Assembly: GCF_003013815.1 (NCBI RefSeq)
Contig: NZ_PRLH01000190.1
Span: forward strand, 1-52,585
Source of the DNA: Cyanothece sp. BG0011
Lineage (GTDB): Bacteria > Cyanobacteriota > Cyanobacteriia > Cyanobacteriales > Microcystaceae
Direction of reading: 5' to 3'
Length of the DNA: 52,585 nucleotides
Shown here piece after piece: positions 10,601 through 18,700 of the stretch (the stretch's first letter is position 1; the number at the start of each line of letters is the position of its first letter). Position numbers and translations under genes: made by a program. Under the pieces are notes generated by a model that saw only the letters and a program-made list of their open reading frames with translations, was not told the origin of the DNA and did no database searches.

Positions 10601-11554
10601 ATGGCTGAACCCTTCACAATAGGCGGACAAAATGGTTGGTATCATGATCAAGGACATTGGGCAGGTTACTTTCACACTTATGATAATTTTAAGCAATCCG
10701 ATATAGATGCTAAACGGAGAATAATTCATGTATTCTTGCCCAGAGATTATGAATATAGCCAGGAAAGCTATCCCGTCATTTATATGAATGATGGAGATAC
10801 CGCCTTTTTTTCTGGGGGTCAGTATTATAAAAGTTGGAACATGGGGCAGATTTTGACACGGTTATATGTAACCAATCAAATTCGGCGCGTGATTGTGGTA
10901 GCTATTTGTCCCATTGACCGTAATTATGAATACACCCATGCCCCGATTAAAGAAGGAAATTGGGGGGGATTAACAGGATATTCTGATTATCTAGCTTTTG
11001 AGATTAAGCCATTTATTGATAATAATTATCGTACCCTTTCTAGCCCCGAAAATTCGATGGTCTTGGGGTCATCTCATGGAGGATTAGCGGCTTTTTATAC
11101 AGCCATAAGACACCCTAAGCAATTCAAATGTGTGGCCGCCTTGTCTCCTTCTTTTTGGGTAGGATTAGACTCAATGATTGACCCTTCTTTCTTAGATTTA
11201 TCAGGAGACTTATTAGGGTCACTAGAATATTCAGCCTTGATGTTTGCTGGCTTAAAAACCTTACAAGATCCCCAATTACAACCGAAAATTTATTTAGATT
11301 GGGGACTCATTCGAGAAGGAGGTTATCATAATTCTTTTATCGAAGCCAGAGCAACCGCAAGAGGCCGGGAAATGCGAGATTTATTAATCAATAAATTTGG
11401 TTATCGCTATAACGAAAATTTATTTGTGGTAGAAGACCCCATCGGTCAACACAGTGAAGAATCTTGGTCAGGACGGATGGAAACTGTGTTACCCAACTTT
11501 TTTGGGTGGCCCGCATTGATGAAACAGTTGTCAGCGCAAAAGGCCATCCCCTAA
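10601..11554 (+). CDS. Putative alpha/beta-hydrolase esterase (PF00756 type)
   Basis: 317 residues without a signal peptide. The fold follows the esterase D/Fes family: RRIIHVFLPRDY and PVIYMNDGDT on early strands, then the nucleophile elbow LGSSHGG (catalytic Ser), and a late GQHSEESW whose His would complete the triad. Family members hydrolyse simple or siderophore esters, or S-formylglutathione; the substrate here is unknown. It ends 79 bp before tRNA-Gly on the same strand. Confidence 0.82.
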   Translation: MAEPFTIGGQNGWYHDQGHWAGYFHTYDNFKQSDIDAKRRIIHVFLPRDYEYSQESYPVIYMNDGDTAFFSGGQYYKSWNMGQILTRLYVTNQIRRVIVVAICPIDRNYEYTHAPIKEGNWGGLTGYSDYLAFEIKPFIDNNYRTLSSPENSMVLGSSHGGLAAFYTAIRHPKQFKCVAALSPSFWVGLDSMIDPSFLDLSGDLLGSLEYSALMFAGLKTLQDPQLQPKIYLDWGLIREGGYHNSFIEARATARGREMRDLLINKFGYRYNENLFVVEDPIGQHSEESWSGRMETVLPNFFGWPALMKQLSAQKAIP

Positions 11555-11576
11555 AGGAAGGTTTGAAAATTGATAG

Positions 11577-11608
11577 TTGTCAATGACACTTGTGTGTGTT
11601 AGTATAAT
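11577..11608 (+). promoter_or_regulatory. Candidate promoter of tRNA-Gly
   Basis: A perfect TATAAT lies at 11603-11608, 25 bp before the tRNA. The best -35 match is TTGTCA at 11577-11582, with a longer than ideal spacer of 20 bp. The -10 is convincing, the -35 is not. Confidence 0.45.
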
Positions 11609-11633
11609 AAAGCTTGAAAAAATACAAAAATTT

Positions 11634-11704
11634 GCGGGTGTAGTTTAGTGGTAAAACCTTAGCCTTCCAAGCTAATGATGGGGGTTCGATTCCCCCCACC
11701 CGCT
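11634..11704 (+). tRNA. trnG-UCC: tRNA-Gly (anticodon UCC), integration target
   Basis: GCGGGTG at 11634-11640 pairs with CACCCGC at the 3' end. The D arm contains AGTTTAGTGGTAAAAC, the anticodon stem-loop is TTAGC-CTTCCAA-GCTAA with anticodon TCC, and the T arm is GGGGG-TTCGATT-CCCCC. The length is 71 nt with T as discriminator; CCA is not encoded. From base 27 of the tRNA onward the sequence is repeated perfectly at 17767, so the 3' part of this functional tRNA comes from the integrated element. Confidence 0.97.
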
Positions 11705-11705
11705 T
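11660..11705 (+). repeat. attachment site, copy inside intact tRNA-Gly
   Basis: 46-bp segment identical to 17767-17812. It starts at the 3' part of the anticodon 5' stem and runs through the T arm and acceptor to one base past the tRNA. Mismatches begin immediately on both sides, as expected for a site-specific recombination duplication. Confidence 0.93.
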
Positions 11706-11790
11706 GTGTCTAAATCCAGATATATCAACGGTTTCAATAGGGTTTGAGCCATCGAAGGGAAATCGCAAAGGGCAGAAATCAAGGGCATTT

Positions 11791-11823
11791 TGACAGTCAG
11801 ATGACAGTCAGCCTTGACTGTCA
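11791..11823. promoter_or_regulatory. TGACAGTCA box cluster, left end of element
   Basis: TGACAGTCA occurs at 11791-11799 and 11802-11810 and its complement TGACTGTCA at 11815-11823, with a half copy (TGACTG) at 11826. The first two starts are 11 bp apart, exactly as in the right-end pair. They lie about 85 bp inside the att repeat. Likely arm-type sites for the integrase or an excision factor. Confidence 0.65.
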
Positions 11824-11837
11824 TTTGACTGCTAGTA

Positions 11838-11901
11838 AAAGTTAAAATGCACCCAATTGTCCGCTCCTAAAGTTAAAATGCGCCCTATATAGTCTGCTCC
11901 T
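11838..11901. repeat. Tandem imperfect 31-33-bp direct repeat
   Basis: Two adjacent copies (11838-11868 and 11869-11901) both begin AAAGTTAAAATGC and end GCTCCT, with differences in the middle (ACCCAATTGTCC against GCCCTATATAGTCT). The pair lies just outside the stop of the small element gene and inside the TGACAGTCA cluster. Confidence 0.7.
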
Positions 11902-11905
11902 AATT

Positions 11906-12271
11906 CTAATCTTCTGAAACCCTTGTATATCCTGGATAGTAATTTTCATCGTATCGGCTAACAATTCTACGACCGCCGTACCAATTAGGCTGATGAAGTT
12001 TTGCTATATATTCATCTATCAGTTCTTGACATTCTTCTCTATTTTTAACCATTATTCTTGACTTTCGAGTTTTAGTTACCATAATCCATTGTTTTTTTGC
12101 CATATAGCGCAAGTTATAACGAGAAATATTGTTTTTTCTGCAATATTCTGTAGCCGAAATGTAACCATTGGTATAATTCCGACGATAGTCACGTTCTTGA
12201 ACACCATAAGCAAAGATTGAATATTTCGTTGCTTGAGGAAATGGCCCCGATGGTTTGAGATAATTGCCCAT
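11906..12271 (-). CDS. Small element protein, possible helix-turn-helix / excisionase-like
   Basis: 121 residues, basic and Tyr/Arg-rich. Residues about 37-61 (GYISATEYCRKNNISRYNLR) look like a winged-helix or MerR/Xis-type helix-turn-helix, with Ala-Thr-Glu opening helix 1 and Ile-Ser-Arg-Tyr opening helix 2, then a Lys/Arg-rich beta turn (KTRKSRIMVK). I do not recognise the family. Its place at the end opposite the integrase and next to TGACAGTCA boxes would suit a recombination directionality factor or repressor (inference). There is no convincing ribosome binding site before the ATG at 12271. Confidence 0.5.
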   Translation of the reverse strand: MGNYLKPSGPFPQATKYSIFAYGVQERDYRRNYTNGYISATEYCRKNNISRYNLRYMAKKQWIMVTKTRKSRIMVKNREECQELIDEYIAKLHQPNWYGGRRIVSRYDENYYPGYTRVSED

Positions 12272-12377
12272 AGTAACAATACAAAAGTCTCTAGGCTGTT
12301 AATTAACGGAAGACCATTATGGTCTTATGTTCAGTACAAAGGTAATAACAGGTGTTAAACAAGTGTTTTAAATGAGT

Positions 12378-12406
12378 TGACAGTCACCCATCAAAGATGA
12401 CTGTCA
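12378..12406. promoter_or_regulatory. Internal inverted pair of TGACAGTCA boxes
   Basis: TGACAGTCA (12378-12386) and TGACTGTCA (12398-12406) form an inverted repeat, extended to TTGACAGTCA/TGACTGTCAA, with an 11-nt spacer. It sits 10 bp after the primase stop and about 105 bp before the small element gene. It could be an operator for that gene or a hairpin between the two genes. Confidence 0.55.
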
Positions 12407-12415
12407 AGGGACAAA

Positions 12416-13459
12416 TTACTCACAAGGTTCTAATTTACCTTGAGGCCAATAAACCAGCCTTCCATCTTCTAATTTGACCGTCGTATAACCATCTTGATCA
12501 GTCAGTTCAATGATCACCCCTTTTTTGTTACCAGGAGCAATCACTTTATCCCCTAGTTTGTAGTATTTGTGTGACTCATTTGATGTTACAAAGTTGTCTT
12601 TACTGGAATTTTTTAATGGCTGATTATCAGTAGGTGATTTTAGGTAAACTGGCTTCGCAGTCTTCTCCTGTAAGGGTTGTAGGCTATTCAATTGGCTATG
12701 CACTTGGCTCGCATGAATAGGCAATTGACTAGGCGTTTGTTTGTACTCCTCATTATTTTCCTGGTTTTGGGCTGTAGTATTATTAGAGCCACAAGTATGT
12801 GACAAATAATTATCATCAGACTGCATAGCCAATTGACTCGCATGAATAGGCAATTGCGAATCAGTTGAATAGCCTGTGATCCTTGTAGGAGAAGGTTGCG
12901 AAGCCAGTTGAGGTAAAAAGCCTATGTTAGTCAAGTAAACTTTATTGTCACGCTTTTTACCGGCTTTGACTTTAGGGAATAACTCAAGGAACCGTGAACG
13001 AATCTGATTAGGGGCTTTAATTACTTTGTCTCCTTTGGGGAGGTCGTGCCAAACTCGTTTAGGTTTATTCCCAGATTCATCAATCTCTAACGTCCCATCC
13101 TCTAAGTACCATTGTTCTAACTTAGTCCAAATGTCATTAACACATATCTCTCCATCGGGAACATAAGTTAAGCCAACATCCTGACAAAATTGATGTAGGT
13201 GATTAGACTCACAACGAATAGCATCTATGACCGCCTCAGTACATTGATAGTCAATCCCTTCTGTCATTAATCGAATTAACCCATCAATGACCTTATTAAG
13301 AAAAGCAGGGACAACCTTTTCAATAATAAATTGAGGGTCATATTTGAACCGAGGCTCAGCCTTTAATTCCCCTTTGGTAAGGTCAGGATTAGTTTTAAAG
13401 ACTTTATTAAAAGAGAGAACAGCATAACGAGACTTAATTGCTTCTAGTTCCCCTCCCAA
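12416..13459 (-). pseudogene. C-terminal part of the SF3 primase-helicase, separated by a frameshift
   Basis: This frame continues the 13444-15528 gene. It starts inside the end of that gene (16-bp overlap) with a weak TTG and immediately reads LEAIKSRYAVLSFNK, the block that follows the sensor motif in phage/plasmid-type SF3 helicases and carries the Arg finger (SRY). About 150 residues of helicase C-terminal domain follow, then a low-complexity linker with two copies of QLPIHASQ, and a final SH3-like module (GDKVIAPGNKKGVIIELT, VKLEDGRLVYWP). One base is missing relative to one continuous frame. If expressed separately, it would lack the ATPase core. Confidence 0.8.
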
Positions 13460-15528
13460 CTTAGGGGTTTATTAACATTAAAAATAAATAAACAAGAGGG
13501 ATTTAATGAGACTCCATCTTGACCTTTTCTTTCAACGTCAATACTATCCCCTGTAATAGCTTGCTTTAAGCTTTGAATATGGTCTAATTTAACAGAATCC
13601 GTATTCTCACTTGACCAATTAATTTTAGGATTAGTCCCCAAAATTGATAATGGAAACTTTCGTCCTGTGTCATATTGTTTGAAATCCATTAAGGTACAGG
13701 ATGTCATACCTGTGTTACCAAACATTGACTTAACGACTTCTCTTAGGGCATCTTTTCCATTACTTCCTTCCCCTAATAATAAGGTTGCTCTGATATTTCT
13801 TCCCTGATATTTTCTCACGGTATTAAGGTCAAGAGAAGCCCCAATCAGTTTAAGGAAGATGTCTCGCTGATCAGGATCTAAAACTTCTAAAAGCTTGTTA
13901 CAATCAGTGTCATCAGCATCGGGTTTATATTTAGCGTCACTACAATAGGTGTAAAGTCGTGATGGTGAATGAGCAACTAAAACGGGTGACGGTTGTTTAC
14001 CTTTCCACTCAATTTCTAATATGCCATTACTTAGATTGATACCAGATGTATTAACCTGATTAGGTAAGACTCCTGTTATCATTTTAGCCCATTTTATCAA
14101 ATTATTAAGATTAGTTGGGGTTGCTTTTTTGGGCATATTTTCTCGTAAGTAATGACTCACTTGAGACTCTAGTAAGACATCTTCGACTGGTTCATAATAC
14201 TTACCATTCCATTTGTGCATAATTCCCGTTACTGTTATCCAGTAATCATCATCAAAGAAGTCTGAAAATGCTTGCTCAACCCAACTAATTTGATCATCAT
14301 TATTAACATTAACCTCAATCCCTCTTATGTTAGATTCCACTTCTAAATTACTCAGTAGATCATCTTGCTCTTTAAGGGCGGTTGAGTAATGTATTTGTTC
14401 CTCTAGTTTACGGATAAAATCATCTTGATTCATAGATTTGTGTTCCCTCAAATAATCGGCTATATCCCCTTTTTTGGGGCATTCTAACCACAATTTATTA
14501 ATGGGAAGGGTGGCACAAGGAATGTCCAGATTACGAGTAACCTGTAACACTTTCTTTGCCTTTTTATCCCCTTCCTCATCATTATCTGTGATAAAAACTA
14601 GGGATTTTATCCCAATGGCTTTTAACAACTCAACACTAGGATGTAAGGTTTTTTCTGTCCAGTTACTCCCTTGCCAAGTTGTAGCTAAAATCCCTAAATC
14701 TCCCAAGGCGTGGACAGTTTCTTCCCCTTCACTGATAATTAATGTTTTCCCTTTACCATATCGATTAATTAGATAAAATTGATAGGGGAGCCAAAAATGA
14801 TTACCTTTCCCGTTAATTACTTCCCTTTGTTCAGAAGTATGCCATTGTCTAAACGTTTTTTGTCTGTTATCTTTGGGGACATTTTGGGTAAGTTCATATA
14901 TGTTTTTATAGGTATTATCATCTATACTATGAGATAATATTTCTTTGACCCAATCATATCGAACTACATACCCATAACCTAACCAGTCTGTTGACTCAAG
15001 AACATCCTCTAAGTTAGGGAGGCATGAGTGATCACACAATCCATAGGGGTAAACGGTTGTAATGGCTTGATTAGGGACTTTAGACGGTTTTTTAATGGCT
15101 TTAGGGATACTGGTTTCTCGTCTCAGTGGTTGGGGTAATGTTGCGATCGCCTTGAAACTGTCCTGAGATAAAGACTTAGATGGGTTAGATAGGTTAGATG
15201 AGTTAGCTTTAGATGACTTCTTAGATGTTATGCGTTTAGATGGTTTATAAGATGATGGCGGCCAATCGGATTGAGGAAAATATTGTCCCCATATTCCGTT
15301 TTCATGGGAGCCTCGGTAAACATATCCTAATTTTTGGGCATCCACATCTACAAATGAATGACAAAAAACAACCTCATCATTAAAGCAACAATCAGCATCT
15401 TTCGTTCTATCACATATTGGACAGGGGTTACTTTTTCCGGAACGGGTGAGGCGTGAAATATGATGTGACAAAGAGGCAACACTTGTGTTACCATAGTAAT
15501 TATGGTGAGAAACACTATTACTCAGCAT
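13444..15528 (-). pseudogene. Primase-helicase (zinc finger, TOPRIM, SF3 ATPase), frameshifted before the Arg finger
   Basis: 694 residues. Cys36, Cys39, Cys47 or Cys48, and Cys56 form a DnaG-like zinc motif (CPICD...FC). A TOPRIM domain lies at about 255-330: ISEGEE with the Glu and FITDNDEEGDKK with the DxD pair. A D5-type N-terminal helicase domain follows, then Walker A GEGSNGKD at 586-593, INWSSEN as Walker B region and FIFNVNKP as sensor. The frame stops nine residues after that sensor start, while homologous sequence continues in the -1 frame at 13459. The intact protein would have about 1040 residues and would prime and unwind at the element origin. Adding one base (for example to the GGGG at about 13449-13452) restores it. 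Confidence 0.85.
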
Positions 15529-15543
15529 ATTTGTTTATTGGTT

Positions 15544-15780
15544 TCTAAAAAATTTAACACTTGGATGTATTATACACCCATTTAAAATTAAGCTACAAAA
15601 ATATAATTAGAGTATCTAAAAAATTTAACACTTATGTAAAGCGAGCCTATAATTAAGCTCGCTATTGTTTTATCTATTTGTGTTTAACAATTTGTCTAAC
15701 AGACTGTTTAACACAAATAAAGAAGCTTCAATTTTCCGTTTAACAAGTTGTTTAACATTGTCTAACAGAGTGTTTAACAC
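15544..15780. other. Iteron-like array, candidate replication origin of the element
   Basis: Seven GTYTAACA boxes start at 15682, 15694, 15706, 15738, 15750, 15760 and 15772; spacings are 12, 12, 32, 12, 10 and 12 bp. The triplets at 15682-15714 and 15750-15780 are diverged copies of each other, in the same TTT/TCT/TTT order. Two further TTTAACAC cores lie in a perfect 19-bp direct repeat (15544-15562 and 15615-15633). The array occupies the whole 300-bp gap between the RHH gene and the primase gene, with AT-rich flanks, as at iteron origins. It could equally be an operator array for the primase gene. Confidence 0.65.
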
Positions 15781-15824
15781 TTTCAATCTAGTAGTCAAAT
15801 TTTAGTATAATTTACCATTATTCC

Positions 15825-16394
15825 TTATACTCTAAATATTTTTGCCAATCGCTGTAAACTATCTTGAATAGGTTGTACTAATTGATATAATTGCGACCAT
15901 AGATTTTGTATCTCCTGTTGAATGGTCATTTGAAAATTGTTAACCATCTGAGAGAGTTCATTTTTAAAGTTAAAAAAATCATTTCTAAAATTCTGAAACT
16001 CATTAGAAAACTGCAAAAAATCAAACCTAAAACTTGTCATTTCTTGACGATAATTTTCCATTGAATCTATGTTTGAGTCTAGCTTATGCAAAATATTTTG
16101 ATGTTGGTCTTTTACGTCTTTCATACTAGCGATAGAATGTCTTAACAAAAACTCAAGGGATTCTAGATCAATGGTTTCCTTTTGAGCTTCTTTGACAACT
16201 TGATCAACGGTAGTTAAATCATCTAAATTAGCTATCCTTTCCTTATCCTTATACATTACCTGTAAAGTCTTAGTAAGTAATAGAGCAATAGCACGACTTT
16301 GACTTAATTTCATTTCCTCAGCATAGGCTAATAATAACTCAAAATCCTTTTCATCAAGGGTAGCACGGACATTAAGCTTAATTCTAGATGGCAT
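15825..16394 (-). CDS. Ribbon-helix-helix plus coiled-coil protein of the element
   Basis: 189 residues from the ATG at 16394 (MPSRIKLNVRATLDEKDFEL). A GTG 12 bases upstream would add four residues. The first 45 residues read as a ribbon-helix-helix: a short basic strand (RIKLNVRAT) and two helices (FELLLAYAEEMK, SQSRAIALLLTKTL). From about 90 to the end it is a coiled coil with Phe at many heptad positions (FRFDFLQFSNEFQNFRNDF). It starts about 30 bp after the integrase stop on the same strand and ends next to the iteron array, so it may bind those repeats as a Rep/partition-like or repressor protein (inference). Family not recognised. Confidence 0.7.
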   Translation of the reverse strand: MPSRIKLNVRATLDEKDFELLLAYAEEMKLSQSRAIALLLTKTLQVMYKDKERIANLDDLTTVDQVVKEAQKETIDLESLEFLLRHSIASMKDVKDQHQNILHKLDSNIDSMENYRQEMTSFRFDFLQFSNEFQNFRNDFFNFKNELSQMVNNFQMTIQQEIQNLWSQLYQLVQPIQDSLQRLAKIFRV

Positions 16395-16424
16395 AAAGCA
16401 ATACACTCTTGTAAAAAAATAAAG

Positions 16425-17630
16425 TTACTGAGGAAGAATATGAGAAATATTAAGAGAGTCAAAATAATGCTTTTCAATTGTTGCTGTAGAACTATCACAC
16501 CATTTAGCAACAATAGCAGGATTAACCCCTTTTGCTATCTGTTCAGTAATAAAAGTATCACGACAACAATAAGGAGTTGTATTCGGTTTTATGGGGTCAA
16601 CAAGCCTCTTCCAAGCATTACTAGAGAAGTTTCCATAATTAATATTTTTACCTTTGGGAGACAGAAAAATTAAGTCATCTTCATTCACTTCTTTGGGTTT
16701 GATAGATGATAAAATTTCTTGAAGTTCTAAGTTACAAGGAAACTCTCTTTTTCGATTATTCTTACTATGTTTAGTTCTAACGGCTTTACCATTGGTTAAT
16801 TGATAGATTCCACCATCAAAAGTTATCTTTTTAAAATCAGTGGAAATGTCTCCCCATCTTAACCCTATGGCTTCATTAGGTCGACATCCTGTAAAGAATA
16901 AAAATTTAACAAAGTTAGCATAATGACGATAAGAATAACCTGTATAACCTCTTTTATTCCAGTTGCCTTTATGATTTAGAAAAGCGTTAATAACTGCTTC
17001 TTTTTCTTTGGGAGTAAAGGCATTAGGTTTAGTTTCAACTTGATAGTTATGGACTAACTCGTTGGCCATACCTTCGTAGGGGTTAAGTCCTTTGACTAAC
17101 TTATGCTTTAGTCCCCATTTAAAAGCAGCATTAATATGAGTTAAAACCCGTTTAGCCATACTTTGAGTCGTGTGAGTAATCAGCCATTCTCGTAACTCTA
17201 ATGCTTCATAGGGAGACTTAATACCTGATTTTTTAAGATAATTTTCTACAGATGTTTTTAGATAATGAATTGTGGTTTCTTTAAGACTCAACCGCTTATA
17301 TTCAAAATACTTTTCCCACAAACTTAATAAACTAATATCGGGGTAAAGATCAGAAACTAATTGAAGATAATCTTTTTGTTTTACCTGGGGTTTGTATTGC
17401 TCTAGGGTAGCATCAAACCGGCCTAAGTCGATGTCATTCTGTATCGCTCGAAGCTTATTAAAGGCGATTGTACGGTTAGCAGGGGTATCAGATAGGTTAA
17501 GGGATAAAGTCTTCTGTTTACCTCCAAAAAGAGTCCTTGAGAACACGATAATAAGCTTTTCTCGTTGAACGCCTAATGTGCATTGACCTTGATAGTCATG
17601 GCCTTCAATTTCGACTTTCTTCCAAGGCAT
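16425..17630 (-). CDS. int: Tyrosine recombinase (integrase) of the element
   Basis: 401 residues. The N-terminal arm-binding region is followed by a core-binding SAM-like domain (about 95-185) and a catalytic domain. Box I is FTGCRPNEAIGLRW with the first catalytic Arg; box II is PYCCRDTFITEQ, keeping the second Arg but with Tyr where HxxR has His; the nucleophile is the Tyr in EKHYFD, 16 residues before the end. The phage-integrase family cuts and rejoins att sites at tRNA genes. The gene starts 137 bp inside the right att repeat and reads away from it; two TGACAGTCA boxes lie in its promoter region and might couple arm binding to autoregulation. Confidence 0.92.
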   Translation of the reverse strand: MPWKKVEIEGHDYQGQCTLGVQREKLIIVFSRTLFGGKQKTLSLNLSDTPANRTIAFNKLRAIQNDIDLGRFDATLEQYKPQVKQKDYLQLVSDLYPDISLLSLWEKYFEYKRLSLKETTIHYLKTSVENYLKKSGIKSPYEALELREWLITHTTQSMAKRVLTHINAAFKWGLKHKLVKGLNPYEGMANELVHNYQVETKPNAFTPKEKEAVINAFLNHKGNWNKRGYTGYSYRHYANFVKFLFFTGCRPNEAIGLRWGDISTDFKKITFDGGIYQLTNGKAVRTKHSKNNRKREFPCNLELQEILSSIKPKEVNEDDLIFLSPKGKNINYGNFSSNAWKRLVDPIKPNTTPYCCRDTFITEQIAKGVNPAIVAKWCDSSTATIEKHYFDSLNISHILPQ

Positions 17631-17676
17631 AAAGCATTAATCCATAAATAAAGATTATGGTTAACCATAGCACGAT

Positions 17677-17696
17677 TGACAGTCAAATGACAGTCA
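17677..17696. promoter_or_regulatory. Paired TGACAGTCA boxes, right end of element
   Basis: TGACAGTCA at 17677-17685 and 17688-17696, starts 11 bp apart, the same phasing as the left-end pair. They lie 47 bp upstream of the integrase start and 70 bp inside the att repeat. Likely integrase arm sites that may also act as integrase operator. Confidence 0.65.
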
Positions 17697-17766
17697 CTTC
17701 AAAAAAACTTTAGACTGTTAGGGGGAAGAGTCTTTATTTTAAAAGGTTTTAGCGTGATTAAACCGA

Positions 17767-17812
17767 TAGCCTTCCAAGCTAATGATGGGGGTTCGATTCC
17801 CCCCACCCGCTT
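17767..17812 (+). repeat. attachment site, 3' fragment of tRNA-Gly left by integration
   Basis: Identical to 11660-11705 over 46 bp: anticodon loop, T arm and acceptor 3' strand of tRNA-Gly, without the 5' half. It cannot form a tRNA. It lies 30 bp upstream of lgt, showing that before integration lgt directly followed the tRNA gene. Confidence 0.93.
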
Positions 17813-17842
17813 TATTAAAAAGGATATGATAAGTATGTTCAG

Positions 17843-18700
17843 ATGTCATGGGAAAAATGGCGATCGCTTATGCTTTTAGGGTTTCAATTTCAGTCTCCGG
17901 GTCCCATCTTATTTGAAGCAGGTCCACTGGTCATCCGTTGGTATGGTTTTTTAATTGCTAGTGCGGTATTAATTGGGGTAACCCTGTCTCAATGGTTAGC
18001 CAAACGTCGTCACGTTAACCCTGAATTAATTGGGGATTTAGCCATTTGGCTGGTCATAGCAGCCATACCTTGTGCCAGACTTTACTATGTAATCTTTCAG
18101 TGGCAAGAATACGCTCAACGCCCTGAAGACATCATCGCCATCTGGAAAGGAGGCATAGCCATTCACGGCGCGATTATTGGTGGCATCATAGCCGCCCTCA
18201 TTTTTGCTCGTATCAACAAAATTTCCGTGTGGCAATTGGGAGATTTAGTAGTTCCCTCTCTGGCATTAGGACAAGCTATCGGCCGATGGGGCAATTTCTT
18301 TAATTCTGAAGCCTTTGGCGCCCCCACTAATTTACCCTGGAAGCTTTATATACCCATTAATAACCGCCCCGTCGAATATCTGAGCGCTGAATACTTTCAT
18401 CCCACCTTTCTCTATGAGTCGGCTTGGAATATTATGGTGTTTATCCTGCTCATATCCTTATTCTTGTGGGGATTAAAACAGTCTAACCGTCTCCCTGTCG
18501 GAACCTTATCCCTAGTGTATTTAATCGCTTATAGTTGTGGCAGAATTTGGATAGAAGGATTAAGGACAGATAGTTTAATGTTAGGACCATTGAGGGTGGC
18601 ACAGGTTATTAGTTTAGTTATGATTAGTGTAGGGATTTTGGGGCTAGTGTGGTTATATCGTTTAAAGAAACCTTTACCAGACGTGGTTTCCCCTCAATAG
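17843..18700 (+). CDS. lgt: Prolipoprotein diacylglyceryl transferase
   Basis: 285 residues from ATG 17843; an ATG at 17870 ([13 protein letters not shown]) is an equally plausible start and matches the usual N-terminus better. Seven hydrophobic segments span the protein. Lgt signatures are present: [22 protein letters not shown] with the conserved His-Gly, [17 protein letters not shown] (the Lgt box) and HPTFLYES. It moves diacylglycerol from phosphatidylglycerol to the lipobox Cys of lipoprotein precursors in the plasma membrane; the lipoprotein at 21379 is a possible substrate. Its original upstream region is displaced by the element, so transcription may now depend on element sequence. 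Confidence 0.95.

Follow-up and report, generated by a model that had tools for sequence, protein, structure and literature searches.

What kind of element occupies a glycine tRNA gene in Cyanothece sp. BG0011, and can it still replicate? The draft genome comprises 5.6 Mb in 227 contigs, one of which is the DNA analysed here (the window, 52,585 nucleotides). It contains a 6,107-bp unit, 11660-17766, bordered on either side by an exact 46-bp copy of the tRNA-Gly(TCC) 3′ part. A sequence-only reading had taken this unit for a compact tRNA-borne replicon free of capsid, conjugation and cargo genes, perhaps mobilised by a helper or else decayed. The comparisons described below agree with that description and lead us further, to what is probably an integrative plasmid-type element whose origin of replication lies within its own replication gene (rep). 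As sequenced, the copy in the window is probably stranded, because its rep frame is broken while relatives have a single frame.

From the comparison with related genomes, it is evident that the insertion is real. The lgt gene was detected in 48 of 50 genomes of the family (own genome counted), and the regions upstream of it were compared in 12 of these, namely all eight congeners (one genome per species) and four genomes from three other genera. Each of the eight congeners has an empty site, with an intact tRNA-Gly directly before lgt and a single core copy, which is what the sequence-only reading had proposed to look for; the insertion into tRNA-Gly(TCC) is therefore confirmed beyond chance. 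In the nearest congener, G010, whose left flank gene is 94% identical, the empty site aligns with the window on the left up to 11705 and on the right starting at 17767. Six of the eight have the left flank gene on the side where the window has it; the G011 contig stops ~0.4 kb past the tRNA, and the G012 contig, which continues for 2.7 kb, has no match to that gene. No tRNA was found in the upstream-of-lgt stretch of the four other-genus genomes.

The core repeats, exact as first claimed, sit within a longer 54-bp pair that is 94% identical. With core repeats from the tRNA 3′ end, an integrase inside and an empty site in relatives, the unit has the features of a tRNA-integrated tyrosine-recombinase element. 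Base composition gives no sign of foreign origin (GC 0.357 in the element, 0.342 and 0.369 in the flanks); GC at third codon positions is 0.26-0.33 in the open reading frames (ORFs) of the element versus 0.35-0.42 in three neighbour genes. An RNA-family search of 11500-18000 returned nothing besides the tRNA. Among the congeners, the integrase has one match at E<=1e-8, a distant one in G017 (33%), with none in the other seven, and Rep has matches at E<=1e-10 in one, G012; the host genome itself has no second copy of the element and no other plasmid of the Rep family. The arrangement is not fixed in relatives, and comparable elements exist elsewhere, so neither of these two grounds for rejection named by the sequence-only reading applied.

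The element contains five ORFs, all on the minus strand and antisense to the tRNA, within 6.1 kb as had been noted: an integrase, a 193-aa coiled-coil protein, a primase-helicase in two frames and a 121-aa basic protein. Pfam, PHROGs, PADLOC and NCBIfam scans of the five added no further gene class (the best PADLOC match, E 0.015, was treated as noise). No relaxase or conjugation family was found among them with Pfam, PHROGs and NCBIfam, and the element does not therefore qualify as an integrative and conjugative or mobilizable element.

The primase-helicase claimed earlier is present in its domains, DUF5906 (E 2.5e-9) and D5_N (E 4.3e-6) in Pfam, but not as an unbroken gene: the rep region is one ORF in all eight aligned relatives and two ORFs in different frames in the window. 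These domains, together with a GxGxNGKD loop, place it with a cyanobacterial DUF5906 plasmid Rep family, from which it departs in lacking a single frame through the helicase and C-terminal parts. A Toprim-like region stays under the Pfam cut-off, and the N terminus of the first fragment looks zinc-finger-like by eye. This fragment stops before the conserved SRY motif (presumably the arginine finger), the predicted winged helix and the C terminus. The family kinship of the window Rep stands, whereas the function of this copy appears doubtful. With its rep frame lost, the copy is probably unable to replicate autonomously and is maintained as part of the chromosome. This would not hold if the frame change were an error of sequencing or assembly, which it may be. 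That the two fragments are expressed as one gene by programmed frameshifting, for which one could cite the 16-bp overlap of the frames and the otherwise undamaged state of both fragments, is very improbable, given the one frame there in all eight aligned relatives.

The break does fit the 'decayed' variant of the sequence-only reading, and raises the possibility of a dead remnant that integrated once, lost rep and has been passively carried since. The repeats proposed below as iterons are also degenerate, and rep is in pieces in two sister elements (L290 and L292) as well. Yet the integrase ORF, the core repeats and the arm sites are intact, and the arrival seems to be recent, because the congener sites are empty. 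We regard the remnant account as possible rather than preferred, and it is compatible with a plasmid-type element for this single copy.

Relatives of Rep were collected from 47 plasmid records, 79 genome loci (from the best 80 of 87 genome relatives), 80 viral loci (kept from 111 relatives found by an alignment search of viral contigs, mostly matching over the helicase part) and two satellite-phage records. A further feature of this family lies within the gene. In 66 of 75 rep genes, from plasmids as well as from integrated elements, the DNA coding for the linker that follows the predicted winged helix contains an array of lineage-specific 8-bp repeats in both orientations. The corresponding array of the window went unmentioned in the sequence-only reading, even though it is stronger than the iteron-like array reported there, and its hairpin shows at ~300 nt (z -8.2 and -8.3). 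It is not a mobile repeat with other copies in the genome, where none was found. The similarity of the repeat motifs tracks that of the winged helices (Mantel, 2 of 1000 permutations, 35 clusters), a correlation that common descent alone could explain, because both lie in one gene. The winged helix was called from a second look with VIA-align and from the local confidence of a structure model. The in-gene array is most likely the origin or part of it, and the winged helix may be what binds it. As a separate observation, a coding-strand stretch of 210 nt, some 1,260 nt upstream of where the helicase part ends, also folds more strongly than shuffled sequence (approximate z -4.9).

Given its strong hairpins in RNA and DNA folds, the in-gene array could instead be a structure acting in RNA or in regulation, or a site for partition or packaging. 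We consider this rather unlikely, in that a short lineage-specific motif recurs in both orientations at a constant position behind a predicted DNA-binding domain, across plasmids and integrated elements, and a stem alone needs no motif repeated up to 14 times. The iteron-like array that had been reported upstream of rep is present too, as seven same-strand copies of GTYTAACA in steps of 12, 12, 32, 12, 10 and 12 bp (13 copies in the whole window versus 4.95 expected). Since the in-gene array is most likely the origin, the GTYTAACA array is more likely an operator or accessory site.

The tyrosine recombinase of the sequence-only reading is equally clear, with Pfam matches to the catalytic PF00589 (E 6.3e-12) and the arm-binding PF12167 (E 4.5e-9). 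The 9-mer TGACAGTCA occurs seven times in the 52.6 kb, versus 0.24 expected, and always within the element. Near either end there is a direct pair 11 bp apart, to which the left end adds an inverted copy; a further, inverted pair is internal. The copies near the ends stand at 70-125 bp from the core, left and right, as would be expected for an arm-binding tyrosine integrase, and an inverted 17-mer shared by the 250-bp ends exceeds all 300 shuffles. A 31-bp tandem repeat in two copies (11838-11903) adjoins the left arm sites. The same arm layout with another motif was seen in an element of Tychonema sp. LEGE 06208 (L287; 28 bp in common, at +67 on the left and -54 on the right, with the inverted copy again on the left), while three elements with a different recombinase (L288, L290 and L291) have no arm-site pair beyond chance.

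At E<=1e-60, the integrase family is present in 44 of 388 genomes of the class (own counted). Among 20 of its loci, seven adjoin tRNA-Gly (four TCC, three CCC), ten tRNA-Val and one tRNA-Thr, with no tRNA nearby in two. Of the four tRNA-Gly(TCC) loci, three have the integrase followed by a large gene, ATPase- or primase-like and of a different family; in the fourth, the integrase is at a contig end. Locus L347 carries a Prim-Pol with AAA_25 plus an excisionase-like gene, and L348 and L349 have weak AAA matches. The same integrase family thus stands beside different replication genes, and therefore combines with different replication modules. The integrases of L347-L349, ~50% identical to that of the window, adjoin tRNA-Gly(TCC) and read away from this tRNA, on the opposite side of the core from that in the window.

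Integrases appear to have joined such Rep replicons several times. A tree of the Rep helicase part was made by a quick method and has long branches (103 rows, duplicates dropped, 16 of the 80 viral rows kept); on it, the label 'integrase-linked' (16 rows) requires 12 changes, at least seven of them forced by well-supported branches. An integrase of the window family lies near Rep in 4 of 79 genome loci as opposed to none of the 80 viral ones, and a second tyrosine recombinase in 6 of 79, plus two weaker relatives. The catalytic motif of this second recombinase was read by eye; L194 gave no Pfam match at E<=0.1, and in PHROGs neither L194 nor L195 matched anything at E<=0.01. It is 450-500 aa long (L288:4128-5561, with relatives in L289, L290, L291, L195 and L187) and is found at tRNA-Arg and tRNA-Ser.

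Seven tRNA-adjoining elements with Rep and an integrase were compared, namely the window, L287-L291 and L293. Five have core repeats (window 46 bp, L287 49, L288 23, L290 20, L291 60), and L289 and L293 have none of 12 bp or more. In all except L293, the integrase is tRNA-distal and reads toward the tRNA. Since L287-L291 have small gene families in common and yet two integrase types (L287 the window type, the other four the second recombinase), there is a sign of integrase swapping among them. Two adjacent small genes with hydrophobic stretches (L288:7025-7824, homologues in L290 and L291) are absent from the window and gave no convincing NCBIfam match. In the Microcoleus vaginatus HSN003 chromosome, the tRNA-Ser sister element L290:3806-13980 has its rep pieces around a 446-aa ORF.

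A different account would make the element a phage satellite of the PICMI kind, which would excise and replicate on cyanophage infection and be packaged, perhaps as a concatemer, by the phage. In sequence, the closest primase of solved structure is 7ola, which we take to be the SaPI5 enzyme. The L287 element, from a draft genome, stands twice in tandem at tRNA-Arg(TCT), the two copies of 7,112 bp being 99.94% identical, and such copies could derive from a concatemer. The nearest relative of the window integrase (63%, in L094) adjoins phage-like genes with an endolysin, and PICMI elements fall in the same size class with the same gene kinds (6,110 bp; int, regulator, DUF5906-type primase; PMC10803314, used, like our sources on SaPI, lambda, pSSVi and tycheposons, in part). 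The window does have the integrase and DUF3987/DUF5906-type primase of a PICMI, but AlpA (PF05930, PF12728) has no match at E<=1 in the five proteins, and the insertion is not at fis. Rep relatives stand on 47 plasmid records against just two phage records, and the window integrase family was absent from the 80 kept viral contigs with Rep relatives. When the integrase, the 193-aa protein and the first Rep fragment each served as a single query, in scans that reach close relatives only, none was found in viral contigs, and the left junction as an exact 24-mer had 0 matches there. We therefore hold a satellite to be unlikely. A DNA search of the 50 family genomes, bearing on CRISPR spacers, gave seven matches of 25-50 nt (41.9-46.4 bits), some of which may be spacers. 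L094, L095 and L024-L027, elements of related cyanobacteria, have DUF3987- or DUF5906-type helicases and large proteins lacking a Pfam match, such as L094:1162-1998 (278 aa) and L025:6867-9644 (925 aa), and are possibly an undescribed virus group.

For an integrative plasmid-type element with an in-gene origin, the life cycle might run as follows. The integrase would bind the core and arm sites and join the circle to the tRNA gene, and would also excise it, perhaps with the 121-aa protein as directionality factor. Rep would copy the free circle: its winged helix would bind the iterons that the rep gene itself carries in the part coding for a disordered linker, and the helicase and primase parts would then start replication, with the 193-aa protein and the GTYTAACA array possibly controlling rep.

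Several points weigh against this proposal. It was drawn from the genome sequence alone. The exact 8-mer array is missing in 9 of the 75 rep genes, and that of the window is degenerate, its best exact 8-mer being present in just two copies, under the family criterion. The GSCTATKCA pattern was picked after the array had been seen, and its six copies were also reached in 1 of 100 shuffles; the window linker has a z of only -2.2 in 210-nt windows, the upstream stretch -4.9. Copy control, partition or packaging are other functions that the arrays could have. On the tree, where 15 of the 16 viral rows fall in a 16-row clade (support 100), the window Rep is a lone branch on the plasmid-type side (support 62), a place that is unsupported; the Rep structure model has a mean pLDDT of 58 and gave no Foldseek match at E<=0.001. 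As for the arm sites, direct 10-mers shared by the 250-bp ends are within chance (95% of shuffles give up to 11), and pairs occur in just two of five different elements having core repeats.

Table 1. Features of the element and its target site in the window
Feature	Position	Strand	Basis
tRNA-Gly(TCC), target gene, restored by left core copy	11634..11704	+	tRNA search; intact before lgt in 8/8 congeners
Left core repeat, 46 bp	11660..11705	+	Repeat search and site alignment
Left arm-type sites: direct TGACAGTCA pair (11 bp apart) plus one inverted copy	11790..11831		Word count
121-aa basic protein; excisionase-like or other DNA-binding role a guess	11906..12271	-	ORF list; no Pfam match
Inverted TGACAGTCA pair between 121-aa ORF and rep end	12378..12406		Word count
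rep, second fragment: end of superfamily 3 (SF3) region, predicted winged helix, linker, C terminus	12416..13459	-	ORFs, alignment, model
In-gene inverted repeat, six GSCTATKCA at 12682-12874; proposed origin	12638..12918		Repeat, folding, family array
rep frame change	13444..13459	-	Overlap of two ORFs
rep, first fragment: Toprim-like (below cut-off), D5_N, DUF5906/SF3	13444..15528	-	Pfam, PHROGs, NCBIfam
Seven GTYTAACA upstream of rep; putative operator or accessory origin site	15682..15779	+	Word search
193-aa coiled-coil protein; ribbon-helix-helix by eye only	15825..16406	-	ORF list; no Pfam support for ribbon-helix-helix
Tyrosine integrase with arm-binding domain, 401 aa, intact	16425..17630	-	ORF list, Pfam, PHROGs
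Right arm-type sites: direct TGACAGTCA pair (11 bp apart)	17676..17696		Word count
Right core repeat, 46 bp	17767..17812	+	Repeat search and site alignment

The two small proteins offered less. The ribbon-helix-helix label that the sequence-only reading had put on the 193-aa protein had to be given up for want of Pfam support, its N-terminal 60 aa alone giving 0 families at E<=10. For the 121-aa protein, a role as excisionase is a guess. Its relatives at E<=0.01 were found in 5 of the 388 class genomes, one being its own genome (itself and a weak second gene), and the matches in three of the remaining four contain stops; against PDB sequences it had just five matches (E 0.69-3.4), and an AlphaFold model made without an alignment was unusable (pLDDT 36). 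An 81-aa gene with weak kinship to it lies in an own-genome island, L365 (G000:C121:60000-72379), which also has coiled-coil and structural-looking ORFs. Promoter-like sites (32 versus 22.7 in shuffles) and terminator-like sites (4 versus 4.2) were not used.

Taken together, we lean, with somewhat less assurance than for the window element itself, towards a cyanobacterial replicon class in which the gene of a primase-helicase initiator contains its own origin (two-way, lineage-specific iterons in the DNA for a disordered linker, adjoining the DNA-binding winged helix), and which lives both as plasmids and, after repeated integrase capture, as minimal tRNA-integrating elements. If this is true, initiator, origin and specificity travel as one gene, which suggests how such a replicon stays minimal while repeatedly gaining integrases. 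To our knowledge, mapped origins are few among cyanobacterial plasmids; for each gene, the array predicts the place of the origin and the 8-bp motif that sets specificity and incompatibility, and small plasmids such as the 4.6-kb pAL20115e make this prediction testable. In a literature search, mostly among papers outside subscription, neither these elements nor the in-gene array were found described.

How does the element compare with known systems? Among cyanobacterial plasmids, pAL20115e, Nostoc p057_O and a Nostoc UHCC 0302 plasmid (the last two with ParM) share the Rep architecture (DUF5906/D5-type) and the in-gene array; none of them was found with the window integrase family, and the window Rep, in contrast, is divergent and broken. 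The O initiator of phage lambda is an unrelated protein with neither helicase nor primase. Its iterons, four 19-bp repeats in the published passages used, also lie mid-gene, while our family differs in its two-way array of 8-mers (PMC3985674). SaPI5 Rep and SCCmec Cch2 have the D5_N/primase-C-terminal helicase in common with the window Rep, and bind iterons with their C-terminal part; their origin is described as directly downstream of the helicase gene, whereas our array is inside it (PMC7581432). Tycheposons likewise have a tRNA border and a tyrosine recombinase, but are described as 4-200 kb cargo carriers, unlike these five ORFs with no cargo genes (PMC10872708).

As the best reading, the element resembles PICMI and the archaeal pSSVi in function while being a member of neither. 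The pSSVi/pRN-type plasmids of Sulfolobus have an integrase that is split by integration, whereas the integrase ORF of the window is intact inside the element. The parts of PMC8371274 used here describe these archaeal plasmids as small and integrating, with copies that rise on virus infection. PICMI elements of Vibrionaceae, which a virulent helper phage spreads, at ~6.1 kb and with no capsid-remodelling genes, are the closest in size and build but sit at fis with AlpA, in contrast to a tRNA-Gly site and a cyanobacterial host, and the word 'iteron' is absent from the passages on them (PMC10803314). Compact tRNA elements of the present kind would add the cyanobacteria to the groups with PICMI- or pSSVi-like minimal elements.

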